DNA of 64,000 bases from NCBI GenBank assembly GCA_003599865.1, contig QZKS01000087.1, positions 1 to 64,000 on the forward strand, given 5' to 3'. The first letter of the stretch is position 1, and every line of letters starts with the position of its first letter. The position numbers and the translations under genes are program-made. Shown here in pieces: positions 19,678 to 52,792 of the stretch. Source of the DNA: Desulfobacteraceae bacterium. GTDB lineage: Bacteria; Desulfobacterota; Desulfobacteria; Desulfobacterales; SURF-7. The notes under the pieces are model-generated. The model did no database searches and was not told where the DNA came from. It saw nothing but the letters and a program-made list of their open reading frames with translations.

Positions 19678-23216
<3,539 letters not shown>

Positions 23217-23524
23217 GTTTTATCCTGTAAGATTTGATTTATGTTAATCTATCTCAGTGTAAGTCGCCTTCTTATAGAAATGACGCTGATATGAAGGTTA
23301 ATGAATAGTCATATATTCATAAAAGATCAATATAAAAATAGTTTGATGGAGATACTGGTTTTATATTTTTATTTTATAAAATATTTTCATATTCATAAGG
23401 GGTGTCAATAATGGTAACAACTTTTTAACTATTTTAATTTTTTAAAAAATTTATTAAAAAAGCAATGACATTACTATGATCGTAAAATGCAAGAAACATA
23501 TGGTTTATCAACCGTGAAATGAAT

Positions 23525-23556
23525 GGATGTTCATAAACCTTGTATTATGAACATCC
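23525..23556. repeat. Perfect 12-bp inverted repeat downstream of the OmpA-like gene
   Basis: GGATGTTCATAA-accttgta-TTATGAACATCC in the AT-rich dnaN upstream region. Confidence 0.7.
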
Positions 23557-23573
23557 TTCCAATATGGTTTTCT

Positions 23574-25076
23574 TCATTGTGAAATGGGTTGAATCACGAC
23601 ATCGATTCGACGGTTTTTGGCTTGTCCTTCCGGTGTTTCATTGGATGCAACCGGATGGGTTTCCCCATATCCTTTTGCTTGAATTCGATCCCATGAAATA
23701 TTTGAATTCGCAATAATATATTGCCTGACAGCTTCAGCTCTGTCTTCTGACAACTGTTGATTTACAGAATCACCGCCAATGGCGTCTGTATGACCTTCAA
23801 TGGTAATAAAACAGCCTGGGAACTCGGAAAATGCATTTTTTAATTTAGACAGAAGTCCAAAAAATTGAGGTTTTATATCCGATTTTCCAGAAGGAAAATT
23901 AAGTCCATATAGACGGATTAATACATTTTTACCATCCAATAATGCTTTTCCTTCATCGGAAGAAAAAGAAGCGCTGATCCGATGTATTTTTTCTTTCCGT
24001 ATTTTTTCCTGTTCAATTTCAAATTTAAGCTTTTCTTCAGAACTGGCCAATTTATTCAATCGATTTTCCAGATATCCTATTTTGTCATTTAACTCTTTGA
24101 TCTCATTATTTTTCATTTTAATAATATTGGAAAGCTCGGATTTATCATTCTGCAATATTTTTGAAAGTTCAATATTTTCTTTTTGTAATAAATGTATGGA
24201 ATTAATAATATTTTGTGTCGGAATATCAAATCCTTCATCAAATTTTACAGATAAGGATAATGAATTGGCAATGTTTTTGATAGGGATCTCGGCATCTAAA
24301 AAAATGGATTCAAAAGTTCGGTCATTATCTTCCAGTGGTTTGATGATACCTGCCATGTAAATAGCGTGTTTGACTTCATATTCAGCCTGGTTGGAAAGTT
24401 GTTCTGCATCTTTTTGATCATATCGATGCAGATGAAGAAGTGATTCTGCTTTTTTTGCAAAATTTTTCGCTTTTTCCAATGTGATGGGAGCATATTTTCG
24501 AATATCCATATTCTCCGCTTTATTTAAAAGAGACCATACCTCCTTCAAATATTTTGATTGAATCGCTTTTAATTCAGCCTTTCGATATAGTATTTCAGCC
24601 TCTTTACCGATTGATTTTGCATTATCCGAATCACCGTCTTCAAGTTCTTCCGCAGCATCTCGAAATAAAAATTCCGCTTCGTTCCAATTTACTGGATCCA
24701 GTTGATCGCCATTTATTTTCAGGGTGTCTTCTCGGGCTACCATGGTTTCTGTAAACAACACACCGGCTATTTGGGAATCTTTGATTGCTTTTTCAAATAA
24801 ATCTTTTGACCTATCTATAAATTGTTTCATTTCATCCATATCTTCTTTGTTTTGATACATTTCTTCTGCTTCACGATAATATTTCATTCCTTTCTTGAAT
24901 GTATCCGGTACCAATAGGTCGGCTTTCACCTCTTTTGCCATTTCTAATTTTTCGTCTGTAGATCGGAAAATGACACTTTTTGGTTGTAAATAATTGGCCG
25001 AAAAAACGGTACTGATCGGTGAAAAACAAAATAAAATAATGGCAAACCCTATAAAAATCCAGTATTTTGGTTTCAT
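23574..25076 (-). CDS. OmpA family protein with coiled-coil N-terminal region
   Basis: Signal peptide; long helical segment; C-terminal OmpA signature FITIEGHTDAIGGDSVNQQLSEDRAEAVRQYIIAN...GYGETHPVASNETPEGQAKNRRIDVVI. Confidence 0.9.
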   Translation of the reverse strand: MKPKYWIFIGFAIILFCFSPISTVFSANYLQPKSVIFRSTDEKLEMAKEVKADLLVPDTFKKGMKYYREAEEMYQNKEDMDEMKQFIDRSKDLFEKAIKDSQIAGVLFTETMVAREDTLKINGDQLDPVNWNEAEFLFRDAAEELEDGDSDNAKSIGKEAEILYRKAELKAIQSKYLKEVWSLLNKAENMDIRKYAPITLEKAKNFAKKAESLLHLHRYDQKDAEQLSNQAEYEVKHAIYMAGIIKPLEDNDRTFESIFLDAEIPIKNIANSLSLSVKFDEGFDIPTQNIINSIHLLQKENIELSKILQNDKSELSNIIKMKNNEIKELNDKIGYLENRLNKLASSEEKLKFEIEQEKIRKEKIHRISASFSSDEGKALLDGKNVLIRLYGLNFPSGKSDIKPQFFGLLSKLKNAFSEFPGCFITIEGHTDAIGGDSVNQQLSEDRAEAVRQYIIANSNISWDRIQAKGYGETHPVASNETPEGQAKNRRIDVVIQPISQ

Positions 25077-25203
25077 AAATTATCCTCGCGATGATCAAAT
25101 TAAGATGATCAATTTTAAAAGGCTGTCGAAACAATGAAAAGTATATTTGTTTTACAATAATTGAGGGGAGAGTAAAGATAAAAAAACGGTCAGGATAAAA
25201 TAA

Positions 25204-25728
25204 TCAGGATTGAATCCAGTTTTTTATCAAAGGAACAGTCTTTTCTTTCCAAGTATTTTTAATTCTGAGGGCGATAAATTGGGTATATAGCTTTTCAAGA
25301 AGTGTTACCACTTTTTCATAAAGATACACTTTTTCAAGAACAACACCTTCAATATCTTCCTTTTTTTCAATATTTCCGGTTTCAGGTGATTTTAATGAAG
25401 AAATGTTCAGACTTTCACCCTTGATGTTGAATTTCCATTCCAGATCACCCATTTTTAGAGAAAAATTACATTCTGTGACAACACCACCTTTTTGAAGAGA
25501 AAGCTTTGCCTCTTCAAGCCCCGCATCGTCACCTTTAATCGTAATGTTTTCCGTCAGATTATCGAAGCTGTTTTCAAGAACGATACGGTTATGAATCTCA
25601 AAAGAAATCAAATCTTCCTGTAAAGATTTGATATAATTTTGATCGGTATCGATCATGAACCATAACCAGGTTAAAAATTCATGACCGAGAAACTTGTAAC
25701 GATTGTATGAAACAGAAACATCCAACAT
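25204..25728 (-). CDS. RdgC-like protein, C-terminal part
   Basis: YNRYKFLGHEFLTWLWF resembles the C-terminal half of RdgC-like proteins; same reading frame as the upstream ORF, separated only by TAA-ATC. Confidence 0.65.
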   Translation of the reverse strand: MLDVSVSYNRYKFLGHEFLTWLWFMIDTDQNYIKSLQEDLISFEIHNRIVLENSFDNLTENITIKGDDAGLEEAKLSLQKGGVVTECNFSLKMGDLEWKFNIKGESLNISSLKSPETGNIEKKEDIEGVVLEKVYLYEKVVTLLEKLYTQFIALRIKNTWKEKTVPLIKNWIQS

Positions 25729-25731
25729 GAT

Positions 25732-26346
25732 TTAATCCACAAATTTTATAGGTGAAATCGTATTAAAAAGATCACGATCCTTATCGGTTAGTGTTTTTGA
25801 AAGATCAGCCATCGTATATGGAAATAATCGAACCAGTTTCAGTCTGAATGTTTTTGAAAAAAGGGTTTCCAATTCTTCATTTGCCGCTTTTTGATTGGAA
25901 AAAAACCATAAAAAAGATTCTTCATAATTCCAGAGAATGTCATAAATATTTGGTGATGCCGGAATGCGAAGAGATAAAAAATTAACGACATTATCTTTTA
26001 TTGTTTTTTTTTCATTTCTGGATAGATGTTCCCTTTCACTCTCAGCCAGCTTTTTGGCTATTTCCGCCATATAATATTTTTTGATAATTTTGGAGGGGAT
26101 GCTTTTTTTATCAATTCGCAGGGAAAAAATAAAATAGGTTCCAATAATACAGGATGTTTTGTCAAAATCGGGGATATACGGGTTTTCAAAGCAGGTCCAT
26201 CCAGCAGTTTTTTGAACCGGTTCATGATCAATATCGGTTATGGAAAATTTTTTTAAGCCCTCGGTAATGGTAGCTGTGAGATTACCATTGACTTCACCGA
26301 TTACTTTATATTGGGTGATGGATACGGATGATGATAATAATCCCAT
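25732..26346 (-). CDS. RdgC-like protein, N-terminal part
   Basis: FIFSLRIDKKSIPSKIIKKYYMAEIAKKLAESEREHLSRNEKKTIKDNVVNFL parallels the RdgC segment [42 protein letters not shown]. Confidence 0.75.
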   Translation of the reverse strand: MGLLSSSVSITQYKVIGEVNGNLTATITEGLKKFSITDIDHEPVQKTAGWTCFENPYIPDFDKTSCIIGTYFIFSLRIDKKSIPSKIIKKYYMAEIAKKLAESEREHLSRNEKKTIKDNVVNFLSLRIPASPNIYDILWNYEESFLWFFSNQKAANEELETLFSKTFRLKLVRLFPYTMADLSKTLTDKDRDLFNTISPIKFVD

Positions 26347-26453
26347 ATAAGAAAATCCTGAATACCTTTATGCTATATACAGTTGACGGAAATGAGATAT
26401 GCATATAGCTTGATTGTTAATCAGTTACAAGGTTTTTATCAAAAAAAGATGCA

Positions 26454-29400
26454 TTGGTGAAAAAAATGAAATTTATAGCGGATCTTCATATTCATTCCAA
26501 ATATTCCAGAGCGACAGCGAAAAATCTTGATCTGGAAAACCTGTATATTTCAGCCCGGCGAAAAGGCATAACGGTTGTAGGAACAGGGGATTTTACCCAT
26601 CCACATTGGTTTTCCGAATTAAAAGAAAAACTGATACCAGCTGAACCAGGATTGTTTCAATTAAAGAAGGAAATAGCCGGAGTCTGTGACCGTGAAGTGC
26701 CGGAATCCTGTAAATCACAGGTTCGGTTTATACTGGAATCCGAGATCAGCAATATTTATAAAAAAAACGGTAAAACAAGAAAAAACCATAATCTTGTTTT
26801 TTTTCCCGATTTTGAAAAAGCGGAAATATTTAATTCCAAACTGGATCGTATCGGCAATATCAAATCGGACGGAAGGCCGATACTGGGATTGGATTCCAGA
26901 AATCTGCTTGAAATTATACTTGAAACATCAGAAAATGCCTATCTGGTTCCAGCACACATCTGGACACCATGGTTTTCGCTGTTGGGATCCAAATCCGGAT
27001 TTGATTCCATTGAAGAGTGTTTTGAAGATTTAAGCCCGTATATATTTGCAGCGGAAACAGGCCTTTCTTCAGACCCTCCAATGAACTGGAGGATTTCCAG
27101 TCTTGACCGGATAACACTGATATCCAATTCCGATGCGCACTCACCCGGCAAACTGGGAAGAGAATCCAATCTGTTTAATACGGATCTGGATTATTTTGCC
27201 ATAAGAAAAGCCATGGAAACCGGAAATCCGGATCAATTTTTAGGGACATTTGAATTTTATCCGGAAGAAGGAAAGTATCACCTGGATGGTCATAGAAAAT
27301 GTAATATATGCTTCACACCTGAGGAGTCCAGAAAACATAAAGGAATATGTCCGATATGCGGAAAATCCATGACGCTTGGCGTATTATACAGGGTTGAAGA
27401 ACTGGCGGACCGGAAAGAGGGATATATCCCGAGCAATCATCATCCCTATTACAGCATTGTTCCATTACAGGAAATTCTTTCGGAATTGTTAAAGGTCGGC
27501 CCTCAATCCCAAAAAGTAAAAAATTACTATGAGGTGCTCATTCAAACCTTTGGCTCGGAATTAGACATATTACATACTATGGATCCGGTACGGATTGAAG
27601 CTGCCGGGATTCCTTATCTCGGGGAGGCCATACAACGAATAAGAGACCGGAAAATAGTATTGTTTCCGGGGTATGATGGAGAGTATGGAAAAATTCAGAT
27701 CTTTGACGAAAGGGAAAGACAAAAACAGCAGGCTCAAAAAAATTTGTTTGAATTACCGGAAACCCTGGAAAAAGAAATGGGGATAGTAAATAAAAAAAGA
27801 ATATCATCCGGTCCGTCTGAAAAACTGGAACGAAAAACCCGAACTTCCTTTCAACAAATCAGCAGGATAAATGATCTGAATGAGCAGCAGCGCAGCGCTG
27901 TTTCCCATATGGGAACCCCTCTGTTAATTGTCGCCGGCCCCGGTACCGGGAAAACCCTTACCCTTACCCATAAAATTGCATATTTAATCCATAAAAAGGA
28001 AATTTCTCCTGATCATATTCTTGCCGTGACCTTTACCAATAAGGCGGCGCAGGAGATGAAAGAACGACTGAAAAGACTGTTGGGAGATGATGCACCATTG
28101 CCATTTGTGGCCACATTTCATTCCCTCTGTTTTCATATTTTAAATGAAGTGAATTATGGTCAGCAATATACCATTGCCGATGAGGACGATCGTATCTTTT
28201 TTATAAAAGAGGCCTGCGCCCGGGTCCGGGAAACAGGAATCAAACTTCCTCATTCAGAAAAAACTTTTTTACACATGATCATTGCCGCAAAACAAATTAT
28301 TAGGGAACCATTCGATGATATTACATCGATAGCGAATGATTATGGTTGCCGTGTTGATCTGTTACGGAAAGTATATGGTGAATATCAGAATGTTTTATCC
28401 GGTCAGGGGGTGTATGATTTTGAGGATTTGATCTTCAAGGTGGTTAAACTGCTGGAAACAGATGATAAAATTTGTAAAAAATACAAAAACTTATACACAC
28501 ACATCTTGATTGATGAATATCAGGATTTAAATCAGGGTCAGTATCGGATTGTCAAAGCCCTTGCATCGGAAAATCCGAATTTGTTTGCCATTGGAGACCC
28601 GGATCAGTCGATTTATGGATTCAGGGGTTCAGATGTTCAATTTTTTAAAATGTTTATAAATGATTATCCCCAGGCCAAAACCATCCACCTTACCCGTAAT
28701 TATCGTTCCACCGAAACCATTTTGCAGGCATCTTTTCAGATTATACGAAGCCAGCATGACCAGCCTTCTGAATCAAGAGTGTATTCAGAAATTGATGGTA
28801 CGAAAACCATATCGGTGATGAAGTTTTCCAGTGAAAAAGCAGAAGCGGTCGCCATTGGAAAAATAATTGAGCAGATGGTTGGAGGGCTTGGATTCTACTC
28901 TATTGATTTTCAGAAGGCAGGTGATGGTTTTGAAATCATGGACAGGAGTTTTTCCGATTTTGCCATTCTGTATCGTACCAATACCCAGGGCAATCTTTTG
29001 GGAGAAGTTTTGGGTCGAGCGGGCATACCCTTTCAACAGGCAAGTCGTGACCAGGCGTTTTCACAAAAGGGCATCCGGGAAGTATTGTCTTTACTCAAAA
29101 TCGTATCCGGGGTAGGCACTCATGCTGATTTTCAGCAAGTGATGGAAACCATAGGAAAGGGATTCAATCAAAAGGACGGCAAAATTTTTAAAAAATGGTG
29201 TTTCCGTAATAATTTTCGTCTGGAAGAAAGCTTGAATCGCGTGCTTCGATTTCCCGTACCCGGAATGGGCACAACCAACCAGTTACAATTAAACCATTGG
29301 ATCAACAAACTATTTGAATACAGACAAGCCTTCAAAAATAGGCAGATAGATGAAAATCTTTTCGATCTGCGGGAACAATTTCTAAAAACGAGCGGTAACA

Positions 29401-29879
29401 TTCAGCAGGAAAAAGAAACAGACGAAGCCTTTTCACTGCTGTTGAAAACAGCACGTTTGTATCAGAACAATGTGGATGGTTTTTTTGAAATGGTATCCTT
29501 GTGCGTGGATGTGGATGCCTGCGATTTTCAGAGTGAAAAAGTAACGCTCATGACCATGCATGCAGCCAAGGGGTTGGAATTTCCCGTTGTATTTATTGCC
29601 GGGTGTGAAGAGGGATTTATTCCGTATCAAAAAAAAGAAGAGAAAATCAATATAGATGAAGAGAAGAGATTGTTTTATGTGGCGATGACACGGGCAAAGG
29701 AACATCTATTTCTTACACATGCTGTAAAAAGGAAAATCTTTGGAAAAAGCATTGAGAGAAAACCATCCCCTTTTGTATATGAAATTGAAGATCGTTTGAG
29801 ATATCATGAAAACACTGAACCCAAAAAGAGCAAAACAGGGAAGCATTCAAACCAGATTCAACTGGAACTTTTTCGATAA
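26454..29879 (+). CDS. PHP-domain (EndoQ/TIGR00375-like) protein fused to a UvrD/Rep-family helicase
   Basis: N-terminus FIADLHIHSKYSRATAKNLDLENLYISARRKGITVVGTGDFTHPHW, zinc-binding CNICFTPEE...CPICGKSMTLGVLYRVEELADR; then INDLNEQQRSAVSHMGTPLLIVAGPGTGKTLTLTHKIAYLI, LIDEYQDLNQGQYRIV, TMHAAKGLEFPVVFIAGCEEG. Likely start ATG at 26466. Confidence 0.93.
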   Translation: MVKKMKFIADLHIHSKYSRATAKNLDLENLYISARRKGITVVGTGDFTHPHWFSELKEKLIPAEPGLFQLKKEIAGVCDREVPESCKSQVRFILESEISNIYKKNGKTRKNHNLVFFPDFEKAEIFNSKLDRIGNIKSDGRPILGLDSRNLLEIILETSENAYLVPAHIWTPWFSLLGSKSGFDSIEECFEDLSPYIFAAETGLSSDPPMNWRISSLDRITLISNSDAHSPGKLGRESNLFNTDLDYFAIRKAMETGNPDQFLGTFEFYPEEGKYHLDGHRKCNICFTPEESRKHKGICPICGKSMTLGVLYRVEELADRKEGYIPSNHHPYYSIVPLQEILSELLKVGPQSQKVKNYYEVLIQTFGSELDILHTMDPVRIEAAGIPYLGEAIQRIRDRKIVLFPGYDGEYGKIQIFDERERQKQQAQKNLFELPETLEKEMGIVNKKRISSGPSEKLERKTRTSFQQISRINDLNEQQRSAVSHMGTPLLIVAGPGTGKTLTLTHKIAYLIHKKEISPDHILAVTFTNKAAQEMKERLKRLLGDDAPLPFVATFHSLCFHILNEVNYGQQYTIADEDDRIFFIKEACARVRETGIKLPHSEKTFLHMIIAAKQIIREPFDDITSIANDYGCRVDLLRKVYGEYQNVLSGQGVYDFEDLIFKVVKLLETDDKICKKYKNLYTHILIDEYQDLNQGQYRIVKALASENPNLFAIGDPDQSIYGFRGSDVQFFKMFINDYPQAKTIHLTRNYRSTETILQASFQIIRSQHDQPSESRVYSEIDGTKTISVMKFSSEKAEAVAIGKIIEQMVGGLGFYSIDFQKAGDGFEIMDRSFSDFAILYRTNTQGNLLGEVLGRAGIPFQQASRDQAFSQKGIREVLSLLKIVSGVGTHADFQQVMETIGKGFNQKDGKIFKKWCFRNNFRLEESLNRVLRFPVPGMGTTNQLQLNHWINKLFEYRQAFKNRQIDENLFDLREQFLKTSGNIQQEKETDEAFSLLLKTARLYQNNVDGFFEMVSLCVDVDACDFQSEKVTLMTMHAAKGLEFPVVFIAGCEEGFIPYQKKEEKINIDEEKRLFYVAMTRAKEHLFLTHAVKRKIFGKSIERKPSPFVYEIEDRLRYHENTEPKKSKTGKHSNQIQLELFR

Positions 29880-29931: not shown

Positions 29932-30324
29932 ATGGATGACGGAATCGTAAAAGAACTGGATCTTGAAAATAATTTACATGTCCGAATATATGATCGTTCA
30001 AAAAAATTGATCGGGGACAGATATCAGGTTATAATGCAGGCTGAAATGGATATTCCCATTACCCAAGCCATTCTGGAAAAAGATGTCCGGAAGTTGAAAA
30101 ATATTCTCGGGGACAGGGTTACATTTAAACAAACAAGGGAAAAAACTTTTATTGATGAGGGGGAAAAGGAAAAAGTATTAAATAACATGATTGATTCATT
30201 CATAAATGATATGATTCCCTATTTGTCTCGTCCGGATTTTCCAGTTCGATTTATCAACAAACAATATCAAGATCAAGAAAAGCGGATCAGGCTGAAACAA
30301 TTGCAATCAGAGCAAACAGATTGA
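29932..30324 (+). CDS. Hypothetical protein
   Basis: 130-aa ORF tightly packed between the helicase and SLT genes. Confidence 0.55.
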   Translation: MDDGIVKELDLENNLHVRIYDRSKKLIGDRYQVIMQAEMDIPITQAILEKDVRKLKNILGDRVTFKQTREKTFIDEGEKEKVLNNMIDSFINDMIPYLSRPDFPVRFINKQYQDQEKRIRLKQLQSEQTD

Positions 30325-30942: not shown

Positions 30943-31854
30943 ATGAAAAAATTGAGAATTGTTACTCGTCCTGATTTCGACGGTATTGTCTGTGCGGTAA
31001 TTTTATCAGAGGCTCTGGATATTACGGAGCCGATACTGTGGATAGAGCCGAATGAGTTGCAGAAAAACAAAGTGGATATACAACAATATGATATTATAGC
31101 CAATCTTCCTTTTCATCCCAATTGTTACCAGTGGTTTGATCATCACGTTTCAAATCGAATCACAGAACCCTTTGAAGGAGCGTTTGATATCGCGCCATCT
31201 GCAGCAGGCGTTGTCTATTACTATTACCAGGATAAGCTGAAAAATGAATTCAAGGATTTGATCCGGGAAACAGATCGAATCGACTCGGCAAATCTAAGCC
31301 TGGATGAGGTAGAACATCCGGAAAAATATCCATATGTGCTTCTATCCATGACCATTACCAACCAGAAAAGCACGGATGAATCATATTGGAACCTTCTGGT
31401 GGAATTGCTTCGACACAATCATATTGATCGTGTATTGGAAAATCCGGATGTCAAAAAACGCTGCCGGTTTGTTGTGGATCAGAATCGGGAATTCAAACAG
31501 CATCTTTTGAAACATACGGTTGTTCAAAAGCATGTTTCCATCACAGACTTCCGTTCCTTTGATCAGGCTCCTACCGGGAATCGTTTTCTGGTGTATTCCT
31601 TGTTTCCGGAGGCTGTAGTGAGCATGAAAATTCGATTGGACAATCAGGACAAAGAAAAGGTGATTGTCAGTGTCGGGCATAGCATTTTTAATCGAAACTG
31701 TAATGTGAATGCCGGATTGATGCTTTCCAATTTTGAAGGTGGGGGGCATCGGGGAGCAGGCGCCTGCCGGTTTCATATCAGCAAGGCAGATCTTTATATA
31801 CCGAAGATTATCGATATTCTATTGAAGAATGAAGATAACGAGCAATCTTCATGA
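30943..31854 (+). CDS. DHH-family phosphoesterase / exopolyphosphatase-like
   Basis: VTRPDFDGIVCAVILSEAL, YQWFDHHVSN, GGGHRGAGACRF. Confidence 0.8.
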   Translation: MKKLRIVTRPDFDGIVCAVILSEALDITEPILWIEPNELQKNKVDIQQYDIIANLPFHPNCYQWFDHHVSNRITEPFEGAFDIAPSAAGVVYYYYQDKLKNEFKDLIRETDRIDSANLSLDEVEHPEKYPYVLLSMTITNQKSTDESYWNLLVELLRHNHIDRVLENPDVKKRCRFVVDQNREFKQHLLKHTVVQKHVSITDFRSFDQAPTGNRFLVYSLFPEAVVSMKIRLDNQDKEKVIVSVGHSIFNRNCNVNAGLMLSNFEGGGHRGAGACRFHISKADLYIPKIIDILLKNEDNEQSS

Positions 31855-50033: not shown

Positions 50034-52214
50034 TCAATCCCATATTAGTTTGCGGGCCAGCCCGGACAGACGCTCCCTTGGTTTGTCATTGTTGACGGCA
50101 ACCGATAATGCCTTGCGGGTTCCAATGAGAATCACCAGTTTTTTTCCCCGGGTCATGGCGGTATACAAGAGGTTTCGCTGCAGCATGACATAATGCTGGG
50201 TCAGCAGCGGGACGATGACCACCGGATATTCCGATCCCTGGGATTTGTGAACCGAGATCGCATAGGCCAGGGAAAGCTCGTGCATCTCCTCCGGTTCATA
50301 TTCGACCTTCCTTCCTTCATAATCCACGGTCACCAGCCGGGTCTGGTGGTCGATGGCTGCAATGGTTCCGATATCCCCGTTAAACACATCCTTTTCATAG
50401 TTGTTTTTCAAATGCATGACCTTGTCGTTTGGTTTATAGGTGATCCCCATAATTTCCATTCCGGTATGATCCGGATTCAGGGTTTTCTGGAGCGCCTGGT
50501 TCAGATTGATCGTTCCGATCAATCCCTTGTGCATGGGGGTCAGCACCTGAATGTCCCGGATGGGATCAAAGCCGAACCGATGGGGAATGGATTCGGCGCA
50601 CAGGGTTTTGATGGTTTCCACCACGGTATCGGGGCTGCTCTGCCGGATAAAATAAAATTCCGAGAGTTCATCTTCCGGGCCGGCGGTCTGAAAGTCCGGG
50701 ATCTCGCCCGGATGATTCCAGTCCCGGACCATATGGGCATTAACGATAATCGGGCTCTCCTGGGCCTGCCGGAAAATGGTTTTCAGATAATAGACGGGAA
50801 CGGCATGGGATTGAATGATGTCTTTCAGGACATTTCCCGGGCCTACGGAAGGAAGCTGAAAAACATCCCCCACCAGGATCAATACCGATGTCACCGGAAC
50901 AGCCCTGATCAGATGAAACAGCAGGAGGGTGTCCACCATGGATGCTTCGTCAATGATAATCACATCCGCGTCAATAGGGTTGTTCGGGTTGATCTCAAAC
51001 CGCTGCTCTTTTAAATTGTATTTCAGCAGACGATGGATGGTTTTGGCATCCCGCTGTACGACTTCGGAAAGGCGTTTGGCGGCGCGGCCGGTAGGGGCAG
51101 CCAGAACCACCAGCTTTCCCATTCGCTCAAAGATGGCGTTTACGGACCGGATCAGGGTGGTTTTTCCGGTTCCGGGCCCGCCGGTGATGACCGCCACACG
51201 ATGCTTCAGAATCTGTTCCAGAACTTCCAGTTGTCCGGCGGAGAGCTGGATGGCCAGTTTTTTCAGTATTTCACAGGTAAGCTCTTCCGGATTCATGTTC
51301 AGCATCGGCATGGGTACGGACAACAGGGCCTTGAACCGATTGGCGATCCCCTGTTCCGCGGCATGCAGCTCTTTGGAATATACGGCTTTTTGATCCTGTT
51401 TGTCCGGAATATCCTCCCGGACAAGAATGCCGCTGTCTGCCAGCTCGTCCAGGGCAAGGGCGGCAATTTCCGGATCGATCTGAAAGGTCTGCCCGCATTG
51501 ATCAATGATGACGGTATCCGGAAGAAAGGTATGGCCATCGTTTTCCCCCTGGCCGATGAGATACCGAATGCACCCCCGGACCCGTTTGGGGTCGTCCTTG
51601 GGCAGGCCGTTGTGCCGGGTGATGGTGTCGGCGATCAGAAAACCAATCCCCGGGATGTCTTCGGCAAGCCGGAAAGGGTCTTTTTTCAGGATATCCAGGG
51701 CTTCTTCTCCATATTCCTGCAGGATGCGGGCACTGTAGGCACCCTTGATCCCCCGGGCCTGCAGAAACTGCATCAGTTCCCGGACGATATGGTGTCCTTT
51801 CCACGAGCGTTCAATCAGCCCGGCCTTTGCCTTGCCGATCCCATTGACCTCGGTGAGTCTTTCCGGACATTGTTCAATGACCTCCAGTGTTTTTTTGCCA
51901 AAATGCCGGACAAGGCGCTTGGCGATCAAAGGGCCGATGTTTTTGATCACACCGGACTCCAGGTATTTCCGAATCCCCTCGATGGTTTCCGGAAGGCTGA
52001 CCGCAAAGGTTTCAATCTTGAACTGCTGTCCATAACGGGGATGGGTTTCCCAGTTTCCGCTGAGGCGAAGGGTCTGGCCGGGTGAAATGCCCGCCATGAA
52101 ACCGACAATGGTGATCATGCTGCCGGGCGTTCCGGTTGCCAGCCGGGCAATGGTATAGTGGTTTTCCTCGTTCTGAAAGGTAATCCGTTCCAGGTTTCCC
52201 TCAAGGATGATCAT
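50034..52214 (-). CDS. recD2: RecD2-type ATP-dependent DNA helicase
   Basis: Start MIILEGNLERITFQNEENHYTIARL; GIGKAKAGLI HhH, ITGGPGTGKTTLIRSVNAIF, IIDEASMVDTLLL, LAYAISVHKSQGSEYPVVIVPL. Confidence 0.94.
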   Translation of the reverse strand: MIILEGNLERITFQNEENHYTIARLATGTPGSMITIVGFMAGISPGQTLRLSGNWETHPRYGQQFKIETFAVSLPETIEGIRKYLESGVIKNIGPLIAKRLVRHFGKKTLEVIEQCPERLTEVNGIGKAKAGLIERSWKGHHIVRELMQFLQARGIKGAYSARILQEYGEEALDILKKDPFRLAEDIPGIGFLIADTITRHNGLPKDDPKRVRGCIRYLIGQGENDGHTFLPDTVIIDQCGQTFQIDPEIAALALDELADSGILVREDIPDKQDQKAVYSKELHAAEQGIANRFKALLSVPMPMLNMNPEELTCEILKKLAIQLSAGQLEVLEQILKHRVAVITGGPGTGKTTLIRSVNAIFERMGKLVVLAAPTGRAAKRLSEVVQRDAKTIHRLLKYNLKEQRFEINPNNPIDADVIIIDEASMVDTLLLFHLIRAVPVTSVLILVGDVFQLPSVGPGNVLKDIIQSHAVPVYYLKTIFRQAQESPIIVNAHMVRDWNHPGEIPDFQTAGPEDELSEFYFIRQSSPDTVVETIKTLCAESIPHRFGFDPIRDIQVLTPMHKGLIGTINLNQALQKTLNPDHTGMEIMGITYKPNDKVMHLKNNYEKDVFNGDIGTIAAIDHQTRLVTVDYEGRKVEYEPEEMHELSLAYAISVHKSQGSEYPVVIVPLLTQHYVMLQRNLLYTAMTRGKKLVILIGTRKALSVAVNNDKPRERLSGLARKLIWD

Positions 52215-52792
52215 GCGGGTTTCCGGCTCCCTGTCATCCATATTGCGGCATCCAGCAGGTTTTCGGCAATATGGTCGGGGACAATTTGTTTTTCGGCAAG
52301 CGCAGTCCTTGCTTGTGGACCATTGCCGGTCAGCACCAGGATCGTTTTTCCGCAGCCCGCATTTAGGCCGCACTCAATATCCCGGGCGCTGTCGCCCACC
52401 ATGAACGACATTTCCATGTCGATCGGATAGGCCTGTTGCGCCTGCCGGATCAGGCCCGGCAGGGGTTTGCGGCATCGGCAGCCATCTTCGGGCGTGTGCG
52501 GGCAGTAAAAGATATCGGTGAGCCGTCCGCCGGCGGCAAGGATCTCCTGTTTCATCATGGAAAACATATATTCAAGGTCGGAAAGCGGAACCATTCCCCG
52601 GTTGACCATGGACTGGTTGGTAATCAGGAAGACCTGAAAATCGTGTTGGGTCAGAAGCCGGATGGCTTCCAGGCTTCCGTCGATAAAGACAACCTCCTCC
52701 CAGCTTTTGATATAGTCGGGAGAATCCATATTGATGACACCGTCCTTGTCCAGAAATACGGTATATCGCTGTTTGCTTTTCATGAATACCAA
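52211..52792 (-). CDS. gmhB: D-glycero-beta-D-manno-heptose 1,7-bisphosphate 7-phosphatase (HAD-IIIA)
   Basis: YTVFLDKDGVINMDSPDYI, VFLITNQSMVNRGM, CPHTPEDGCRCRKPLPGLI, MVGDSARDIECGLNAGC. Confidence 0.88.
   Translation of the reverse strand: MVFMKSKQRYTVFLDKDGVINMDSPDYIKSWEEVVFIDGSLEAIRLLTQHDFQVFLITNQSMVNRGMVPLSDLEYMFSMMKQEILAAGGRLTDIFYCPHTPEDGCRCRKPLPGLIRQAQQAYPIDMEMSFMVGDSARDIECGLNAGCGKTILVLTGNGPQARTALAEKQIVPDHIAENLLDAAIWMTGSRKPA

Follow-up and report, generated by a model that had tools for sequence, protein, structure and literature searches.

A single gene in the genome of a Desulfobacteraceae bacterium codes for a protein of 1137 amino acids in which a divergent endonuclease Q (EndoQ)-type domain is followed by a complete UvrD-type helicase and which carries two putative sliding clamp motifs. 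The gene lies in a stretch of 64,000 nucleotides (contig QZKS01000087.1, positions 1 to 64,000), analysed here at its full length and referred to as the window. We consider the protein to be, on balance, probably a clamp-tethered enzyme of an alternative excision-repair route, which would nick the DNA 5′ of a deaminated base and then strip off the damaged strand. The individual parts of such a system are known; what appears to be new is their combination, its apparently single origin and wide spread, the double putative clamp tags and the retention of EndoQ in genomes devoid of both uracil-DNA glycosylase (UDG) and endonuclease V (EndoV). No description of an EndoQ-helicase fusion was found in the open-access part of the literature, and a prior mention is possible, e.g. 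by Shiraishi 2017 on Bacillus EndoQ.

Gene structure and domain organization

The frame between 26454 and 29879 nt on the forward strand of the window is open throughout, with no internal stop codons. An earlier sequence-only reading of this DNA had proposed one uninterrupted ORF with an EndoQ half followed by a UvrD half, and the frame, the profile searches and the fold comparisons all agree with it. The start codon had been misread: TTG at 26454 was dropped in favour of ATG at 26466 (MKFIADLHIHSKYS), the likely start, at which the relatives begin and whose M1 is near-invariant in a family alignment of 24 relatives. The whole gene extends from 26466 to 29879 (+), including the stop codon at 29877-29879.

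An AlphaFold2 model built with 24 natural relatives (mean pLDDT 81.8, pTM 0.56) predicts two well-folded blocks and two disordered stretches, residues 427-466 and 1118-1137. The EndoQ domain (aa 1-426; 26466-27743, +) comprises a PHP catalytic part, a zinc finger and a helical C-terminal part. It is joined by the linker (aa 427-466; 27744-27863, +; pLDDT < 50) to the SF1A UvrD-type helicase (aa 467-1117; 27864-29816, +), and the protein ends in a C-terminal tail (aa 1118-1137; 29817-29876, +).

The EndoQ domain

The similarity to TIGR00375 noticed in the sequence-only reading was recovered in a profile search for residues 5-410 (E 1e-52), but the score of 179.7 bits falls below the curated cut-off of 326.6 bits, which was reached by none of the 297 genomes in a sample of the phylum. 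In a sequence search against proteins of known structure, residues 5-420 matched EndoQ of Pyrococcus furiosus (PfuEndoQ, 5zb8) with E 9e-54, and the only solved structures matching the N-terminal half at E 0.001 were those of EndoQ, with no other PHP family among them. When the first block of the model was compared with EndoQ by Foldseek, the whole target was aligned over 420 columns, with a target-normalised TM of 0.88 and rmsd of 2.7.

In EndoQ crystal structures E76, H84 and H139 are zinc-ion ligands whose loss abolishes the activity, and H139, G169 and S171 form a steric obstacle that excludes T and A (PMC8307549). The inactive mutant D192A of the Methanosarcina enzyme was picked via an essential residue of P. 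furiosus (PMC6202378); its Pfu counterpart is D193 by alignment numbering, a position occupied by N in the chains of 7k30. Residues E76, H84, H139 and D193 of PfuEndoQ correspond to E93, H108, H164 and D223 of the window protein, and the gate H139/G169/S171 to H164/G199/S201; the predicted ligands of the domain are H8, H10, D42, E93, H108, H164, E197, D223 and H225. Among 104 complete fused proteins the positions of E76, H84, H139, G169 and S171 are invariant and that of D193 is kept in 103. The window protein shows no loss of PHP metal ligands. One fusion (L175, from the family designated f47) has Asn at the essential D193 position and an otherwise intact site.

The zinc element had been located correctly in the sequence-only reading, but its second cysteine, C282, is not conserved and the CxxC reading based on it was dropped: the site is HxxC…CxxC, formed by the quartet H276-x2-C279…C295-x2-C298 (HCCC). 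By its residues and predicted fold the PHP module is thus of the EndoQ type, as had been claimed, and by its sequence it is a divergent branch outside TIGR00375 as filed. From the retained residues we strongly infer that the fused EndoQ half nicks 5′ of a deaminated base.

The helicase domain

The C-terminal half was expected to match UvrD profiles, and did so: it aligned with PF00580 (E 2e-75), PF13361 (E 2e-47) and PcrA (1pjr, E 2e-95), with residues 468-1124 matched by PcrA/UvrD/Rep models and structures, and the second block of the AlphaFold2 model resembled UvrD-DNA complexes in Foldseek (TM 0.87). Motifs Q, I, Ia, II, III, IV, V and VI are all present, among them motif I (Walker A) AGPGTGKT (aa 490-497; 27933-27956, +) and motif II (Walker B) DEYQD (aa 683-687; 28512-28526, +), which upholds the proposal of a complete UvrD-type SF1 helicase. 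The catalytic positions are conserved at approximately 100% in the fused set, and the motif I lysine, the motif II DE and the motif VI arginine at 100%. The equivalog cut-offs of the PcrA, UvrD and Rep models were missed (464.6 vs 911 bits); as judged from its sequence, the fused helicase is a separate SF1A subfamily, outside the PcrA/UvrD/Rep models and clade. UvrD-type SF1A motors move 3′ to 5′ along the tracked strand, and by analogy the fused helicase would be expected to translocate in the 3′-to-5′ direction.

Putative clamp-binding motifs

The PIP box at the C-terminus of archaeal EndoQ binds PCNA, and in homologues from bacteria a clamp-type motif occupies this place (PMC4858679). The window protein retains two putative β-clamp motifs: QKNLF (aa 424-428; 27735-27749, +), situated where a separate EndoQ gene terminates in GQxxLF, and QLELF at the C-terminus (aa 1132-1136; 29859-29873, +). 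Both lie in or border stretches predicted to be disordered, QLELF at pLDDT < 50. The strict C-terminal pattern, Q[LM]x[LF][FL], was found at the end of 84 of the 104 fused proteins, in comparison to 9 of 6907 (0.13%) internal 16-residue windows. A chance origin of the linker motif was considered and rejected: the strict pattern is rare there (5 of 105 rows, in a set that contains the window twice, as L165; counts out of 104 exclude the duplicate), but Q-x-x-L-F is present in 45/104 fused proteins against a background of 0.35% per 40 residues. Motif conservation and the analogy with known EndoQ proteins suggest that the fusion may bind DnaN via its tail and, in many members, also via the linker. 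In the f47 loci L173-L179 and L063 the C-terminal motif is often degraded (e.g. RQLSLM, EISLLDM) and the linker motif mostly lost.

Distribution and origin of the fusion

EndoQ was detected in 197 of the 297 genomes of the window's phylum, many of the frames being about 950-1250 aa long and many others encoding EndoQ alone at about 420 aa. The best 80 loci listed from a scan of GTDB genomes are mostly fused and place the fusion in at least about eleven named phyla of bacteria: Desulfobacterota (with the complete Desulfonema magnum chromosome among the matches), Chloroflexota, Gemmatimonadota, Planctomycetota, Pseudomonadota, Myxococcota, Binatota, Actinomycetota, Elusimicrobiota, Gastranaerophilales and Fibrobacterota. 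As many of the matches are metagenome bins, individual phylum labels may err, a doubt that does not concern isolates such as Saccharopolyspora hirsuta and Phytoactinopolyspora halophila (Actinomycetota). A viral origin was dropped, the scan of viral contigs having returned no relatives, and so was a plasmid-borne location, as no plasmid record covered 80% of the fusion protein.

All fused proteins form one clade in the EndoQ tree (SH-aLRT 97, confirmed with a site-mixture model), and the fused helicases form one clade in the helicase tree (SH-aLRT 99). Together with separate helicases from one family of the window's phylum, f60, from which all the separate sisters come, they form a group distinct from UvrD, Rep and PcrA and also from the PcrA-like protein of the window genome itself (SH-aLRT 99). 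In 12 of the 18 genomes with the f60 helicase an EndoQ gene is located directly upstream on the same strand, at a distance of a few to about 120 bases; the EndoQ of this pair terminates in GQxxLF or a similar motif, and its helicase partner in a QMKLF-like one. Separate genes for EndoQ and helicase that lie a few bases from each other, each with a terminal clamp-type motif, were observed in L188 (6304-9269) and L192-L208; such a pair is probably what the fusion arose from. The sister group of the fused EndoQ proteins contains the operon forms with a few stand-alone sequences mixed in, in a tree built without the stand-alone EndoQ of other phyla (e.g. Bacillus).

The simplest account of these relationships is a single fusion event from an adjoining gene pair. 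The location of the stand-alone branches outside the fused clade supports this direction, trees alone being no proof of it, and the sequences also support the view that the nuclease and the helicase are ancestral partners. A lone or recent fusion was dropped in view of the one clade and its wide spread; several independent fusions are unsupported, given the one clade in each domain tree. In L092 and L127 the fusion is split into two frames, with a clamp-type motif on the helicase part only; these may represent sequencing frameshifts or real splits.

Genomic neighbourhood

A divergent RdgC-like gene (25732-26346, −), already pointed out in the sequence-only reading, is real but short: its product of 204 aa matches PF04381 with 30.1 bits (cut-off 25) over about half of the profile. 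In 11 relatives, too, the fusion has this gene as a neighbour. The RdgC-like protein and an adjoining 174-aa protein are conserved together and may act together. The gene for the sliding β clamp, dnaN (22092-23216, −), is kept nearby in about 10 related loci, and the whole gyrB-dnaN-OmpA-like-174 aa-RdgC-like block (19678-26453 of the window) next to the fusion has been conserved across about ten loci from Desulfobacterales. The cumulative GC skew of the window has its minimum at 25740, so the replication origin is probably close and the fusion locus origin-proximal; no clear DnaA-box cluster was seen. Just 3′ of the fusion, on the same strand, a 130-aa protein without a family match is encoded (29932-30324), which is also found directly downstream of the fusion in L084, L090, L094 and L098. 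Farther on, the window encodes a 303-aa protein with DHH-like motifs (WFDHHVSN) and no Pfam or NCBIfam match (30943-31854), and a RecD2-type helicase with HHH_RecD2, OB_YrrC and SH3_13 domains (50034-52373).

EndoQ in genomes devoid of UDG and EndoV

In f47, one family of the window's phylum, all but one of the 79 genomes encode EndoQ, and 73 of the 78 best matches lie in frames longer than 1000 aa. The UDG superfamily is represented in 29 of these genomes and absent from 50, and EndoV occurs in two, both UDG-positive, and is absent from 77. EndoQ is kept in 50/50 of the genomes with neither UDG nor EndoV, the f47 genomes being related and not independent samples. The lone f47 genome without EndoQ is UDG-positive, and so is a genome with a stop inside EndoQ. 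Absence in these counts refers to the UDG superfamily and EndoV, AlkA and ExoIII-type dU nucleases lying outside them. The lack of both in 50/79 genomes seems unusual for bacteria. The family is possibly Desulfovibrio-like, as Desulfovibrio is an EndoQ genus named in PMC4357722.

The pattern of absence in f47 points to a role in the repair of deaminated bases, and in bacteria without the usual enzyme for the repair of uracil, the fusion may be the principal one. UDG is present in the window's own genome, so the fusion is not the sole uracil route there; no EndoV was found in this genome. UDG and EndoQ occur together in most genomes of the phylum.

Proposed mechanism and alternatives

EndoQ nicks DNA 5′ of U, Hx, X and AP sites (PMC4357722, PMC4858679), which results in 3′-OH and 5′-phosphate ends with the damaged nucleotide 3′ of the nick (PMC4357722). 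In the proposed mechanism the fusion would dock on the β clamp via its tail and, in many members, via the additional linker motif; its EndoQ domain would flip out a deaminated base (uracil, hypoxanthine, xanthine) or else an abasic site and nick 5′ of it, leaving a 3′-OH. The UvrD-type motor would then load at the nick and, travelling on the intact template 3′-to-5′ away from the 3′-OH, would peel off the strand starting with the damaged base; with this polarity on the intact strand it is the lesion-first strand, not the upstream one, that should be displaced. The displaced strand would become a 5′ flap, to be removed by a flap nuclease, a polymerase would extend the 3′-OH and ligase would seal the strand. 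We infer with moderate confidence that the nick is coupled to unwinding, in that order. Two routes following the nick have been proposed, strand displacement by polymerase with Fen1, or helicase-driven removal once EndoV has made a second cut (PMC4357722), the latter being unlikely in the UDG-less f47 genomes and the window genome since EndoV is missing from them. The occurrence of EndoQ without a helicase neighbour in many related genomes indicates that the motor is dispensable for EndoQ function generally.

The main rival reverses the order of events: a clamp-bound helicase would open the DNA, e.g. behind the fork, and feed single strands to a scanning EndoQ. We find it unlikely, even though PfuEndoQ acts more efficiently on U and Hx when the DNA is single-stranded (PMC11354406) and the clamp-type motifs hint at replication, because nicks in the exposed single strands would break the fork and because EndoQ is active on duplex DNA too, which makes a scanning motor unnecessary. 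Less likely again is a general nucleotide-incision or AP-endonuclease role, in which the fusion, with UDG present (as in the window genome), would deal mainly with abasic sites and small lesions exposed by the helicase. Such a role would suit both the co-occurrence of UDG and EndoQ in the phylum and the preference of EndoQ for abasic sites in duplex DNA, on which it is most active (PMC11354406), but would explain neither the invariance of the gate that separates U and Hx from T and A nor the retention of EndoQ where UDG has been lost.

That the fusion attacks uracil-rich foreign DNA or acts in a Gabija-like manner appears very unlikely. An antiviral role of EndoQ has been suggested in a review (PMC8307549) and the helicase half matches GajB models (1e-94), but PcrA/UvrD models are stronger (6e-139), no relatives were found in viral contigs, none of the plasmid records spans the greater part of the protein, and the near-universal presence in f47 and conserved synteny with gyrB and dnaN fit a housekeeping function. 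GajA is absent beside the helicase, and the immediate neighbours, the RdgC-like, 174-aa and 130-aa proteins, had no matches to defence models. The least probable of all is dual incision, with the 5′ cut made by EndoQ, the 3′ cut by EndoV and the short piece removed by the helicase. The right-hand model of figure 10 in PMC4357722 depicts this scheme and a fused helicase would fit it, but EndoV was found neither in the window genome nor in any of the 50 UDG-less f47 genomes, and in only 2/79 of the family. Partnership with EndoV is refuted for the window and f47 genomes unless another 3′ nicking enzyme is present.

Beyond the preferred reading of a nick followed by strand removal, we suggest tentatively, and with less confidence, that the fusion represents an undescribed, widespread excision-repair pathway in one polypeptide (nickase, motor and clamp tags), which, in at least one family, has taken over from UDG and EndoV as the chief means of repairing deaminated bases. 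The fusion names a helicase, along with the clamp tags, as the candidate next player after the EndoQ nick and predicts the polarity of the step that follows. Bacteria that lack UDG or EndoV but possess the fusion offer natural genetic backgrounds for the pathway, and the protein would be a compact lesion-directed strand-displacement tool.

Comparison with known systems

The window protein shares with EndoQ of Pyrococcus furiosus and Thermococcus (5zb8, 7k30; PMC4357722) the whole fold (TM 0.88), the metal ligands, the essential D193, the U/Hx gate, the zinc site and the clamp-type motif that closes the EndoQ part. It differs in its sequence (33% identity over the structural alignment), in His for Cys as one zinc ligand, in extra inserts such as 17 aa before E93, and in the addition of the helicase and a second clamp motif, PCNA being presumably replaced by the β clamp. 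Stand-alone bacterial EndoQ proteins (Bacillus; related Desulfobacterota and Nitrospirota) share this domain, and in many of the examined cases they terminate in Q-x-x-L-F, but their length is about 420 aa and the chain includes no helicase. UvrD, PcrA and Rep have the SF1A core fold and all motifs in common with the fused helicase, which in turn has GPGTGKT where they have GAGSGKT and GDPxQxIYGFRG where they have GDDDQSIYxWRG, forms a separate clade (SH-aLRT 99) and carries the terminal clamp motif; its alignment with PcrA stops before the PcrA C-terminal extension.

A nick followed by UvrD-type unwinding from that nick is the principle of both MutH/MutL-UvrD mismatch excision and RepD-PcrA plasmid unwinding. 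The nickase and the helicase of these systems are separate proteins, whereas the window protein joins them in one chain with a predicted lesion-specific nick. Ferroplasma AGT-EndoV (PMC4357722) is likewise a repair nuclease fused with another repair domain, but the nuclease is a different one and there is no motor. Gabija GajB resembles the fusion in being a UvrD-type helicase with a nuclease partner; this partner, GajA, is a separate OLD-type protein, and the match to GajB is weaker than that to PcrA.
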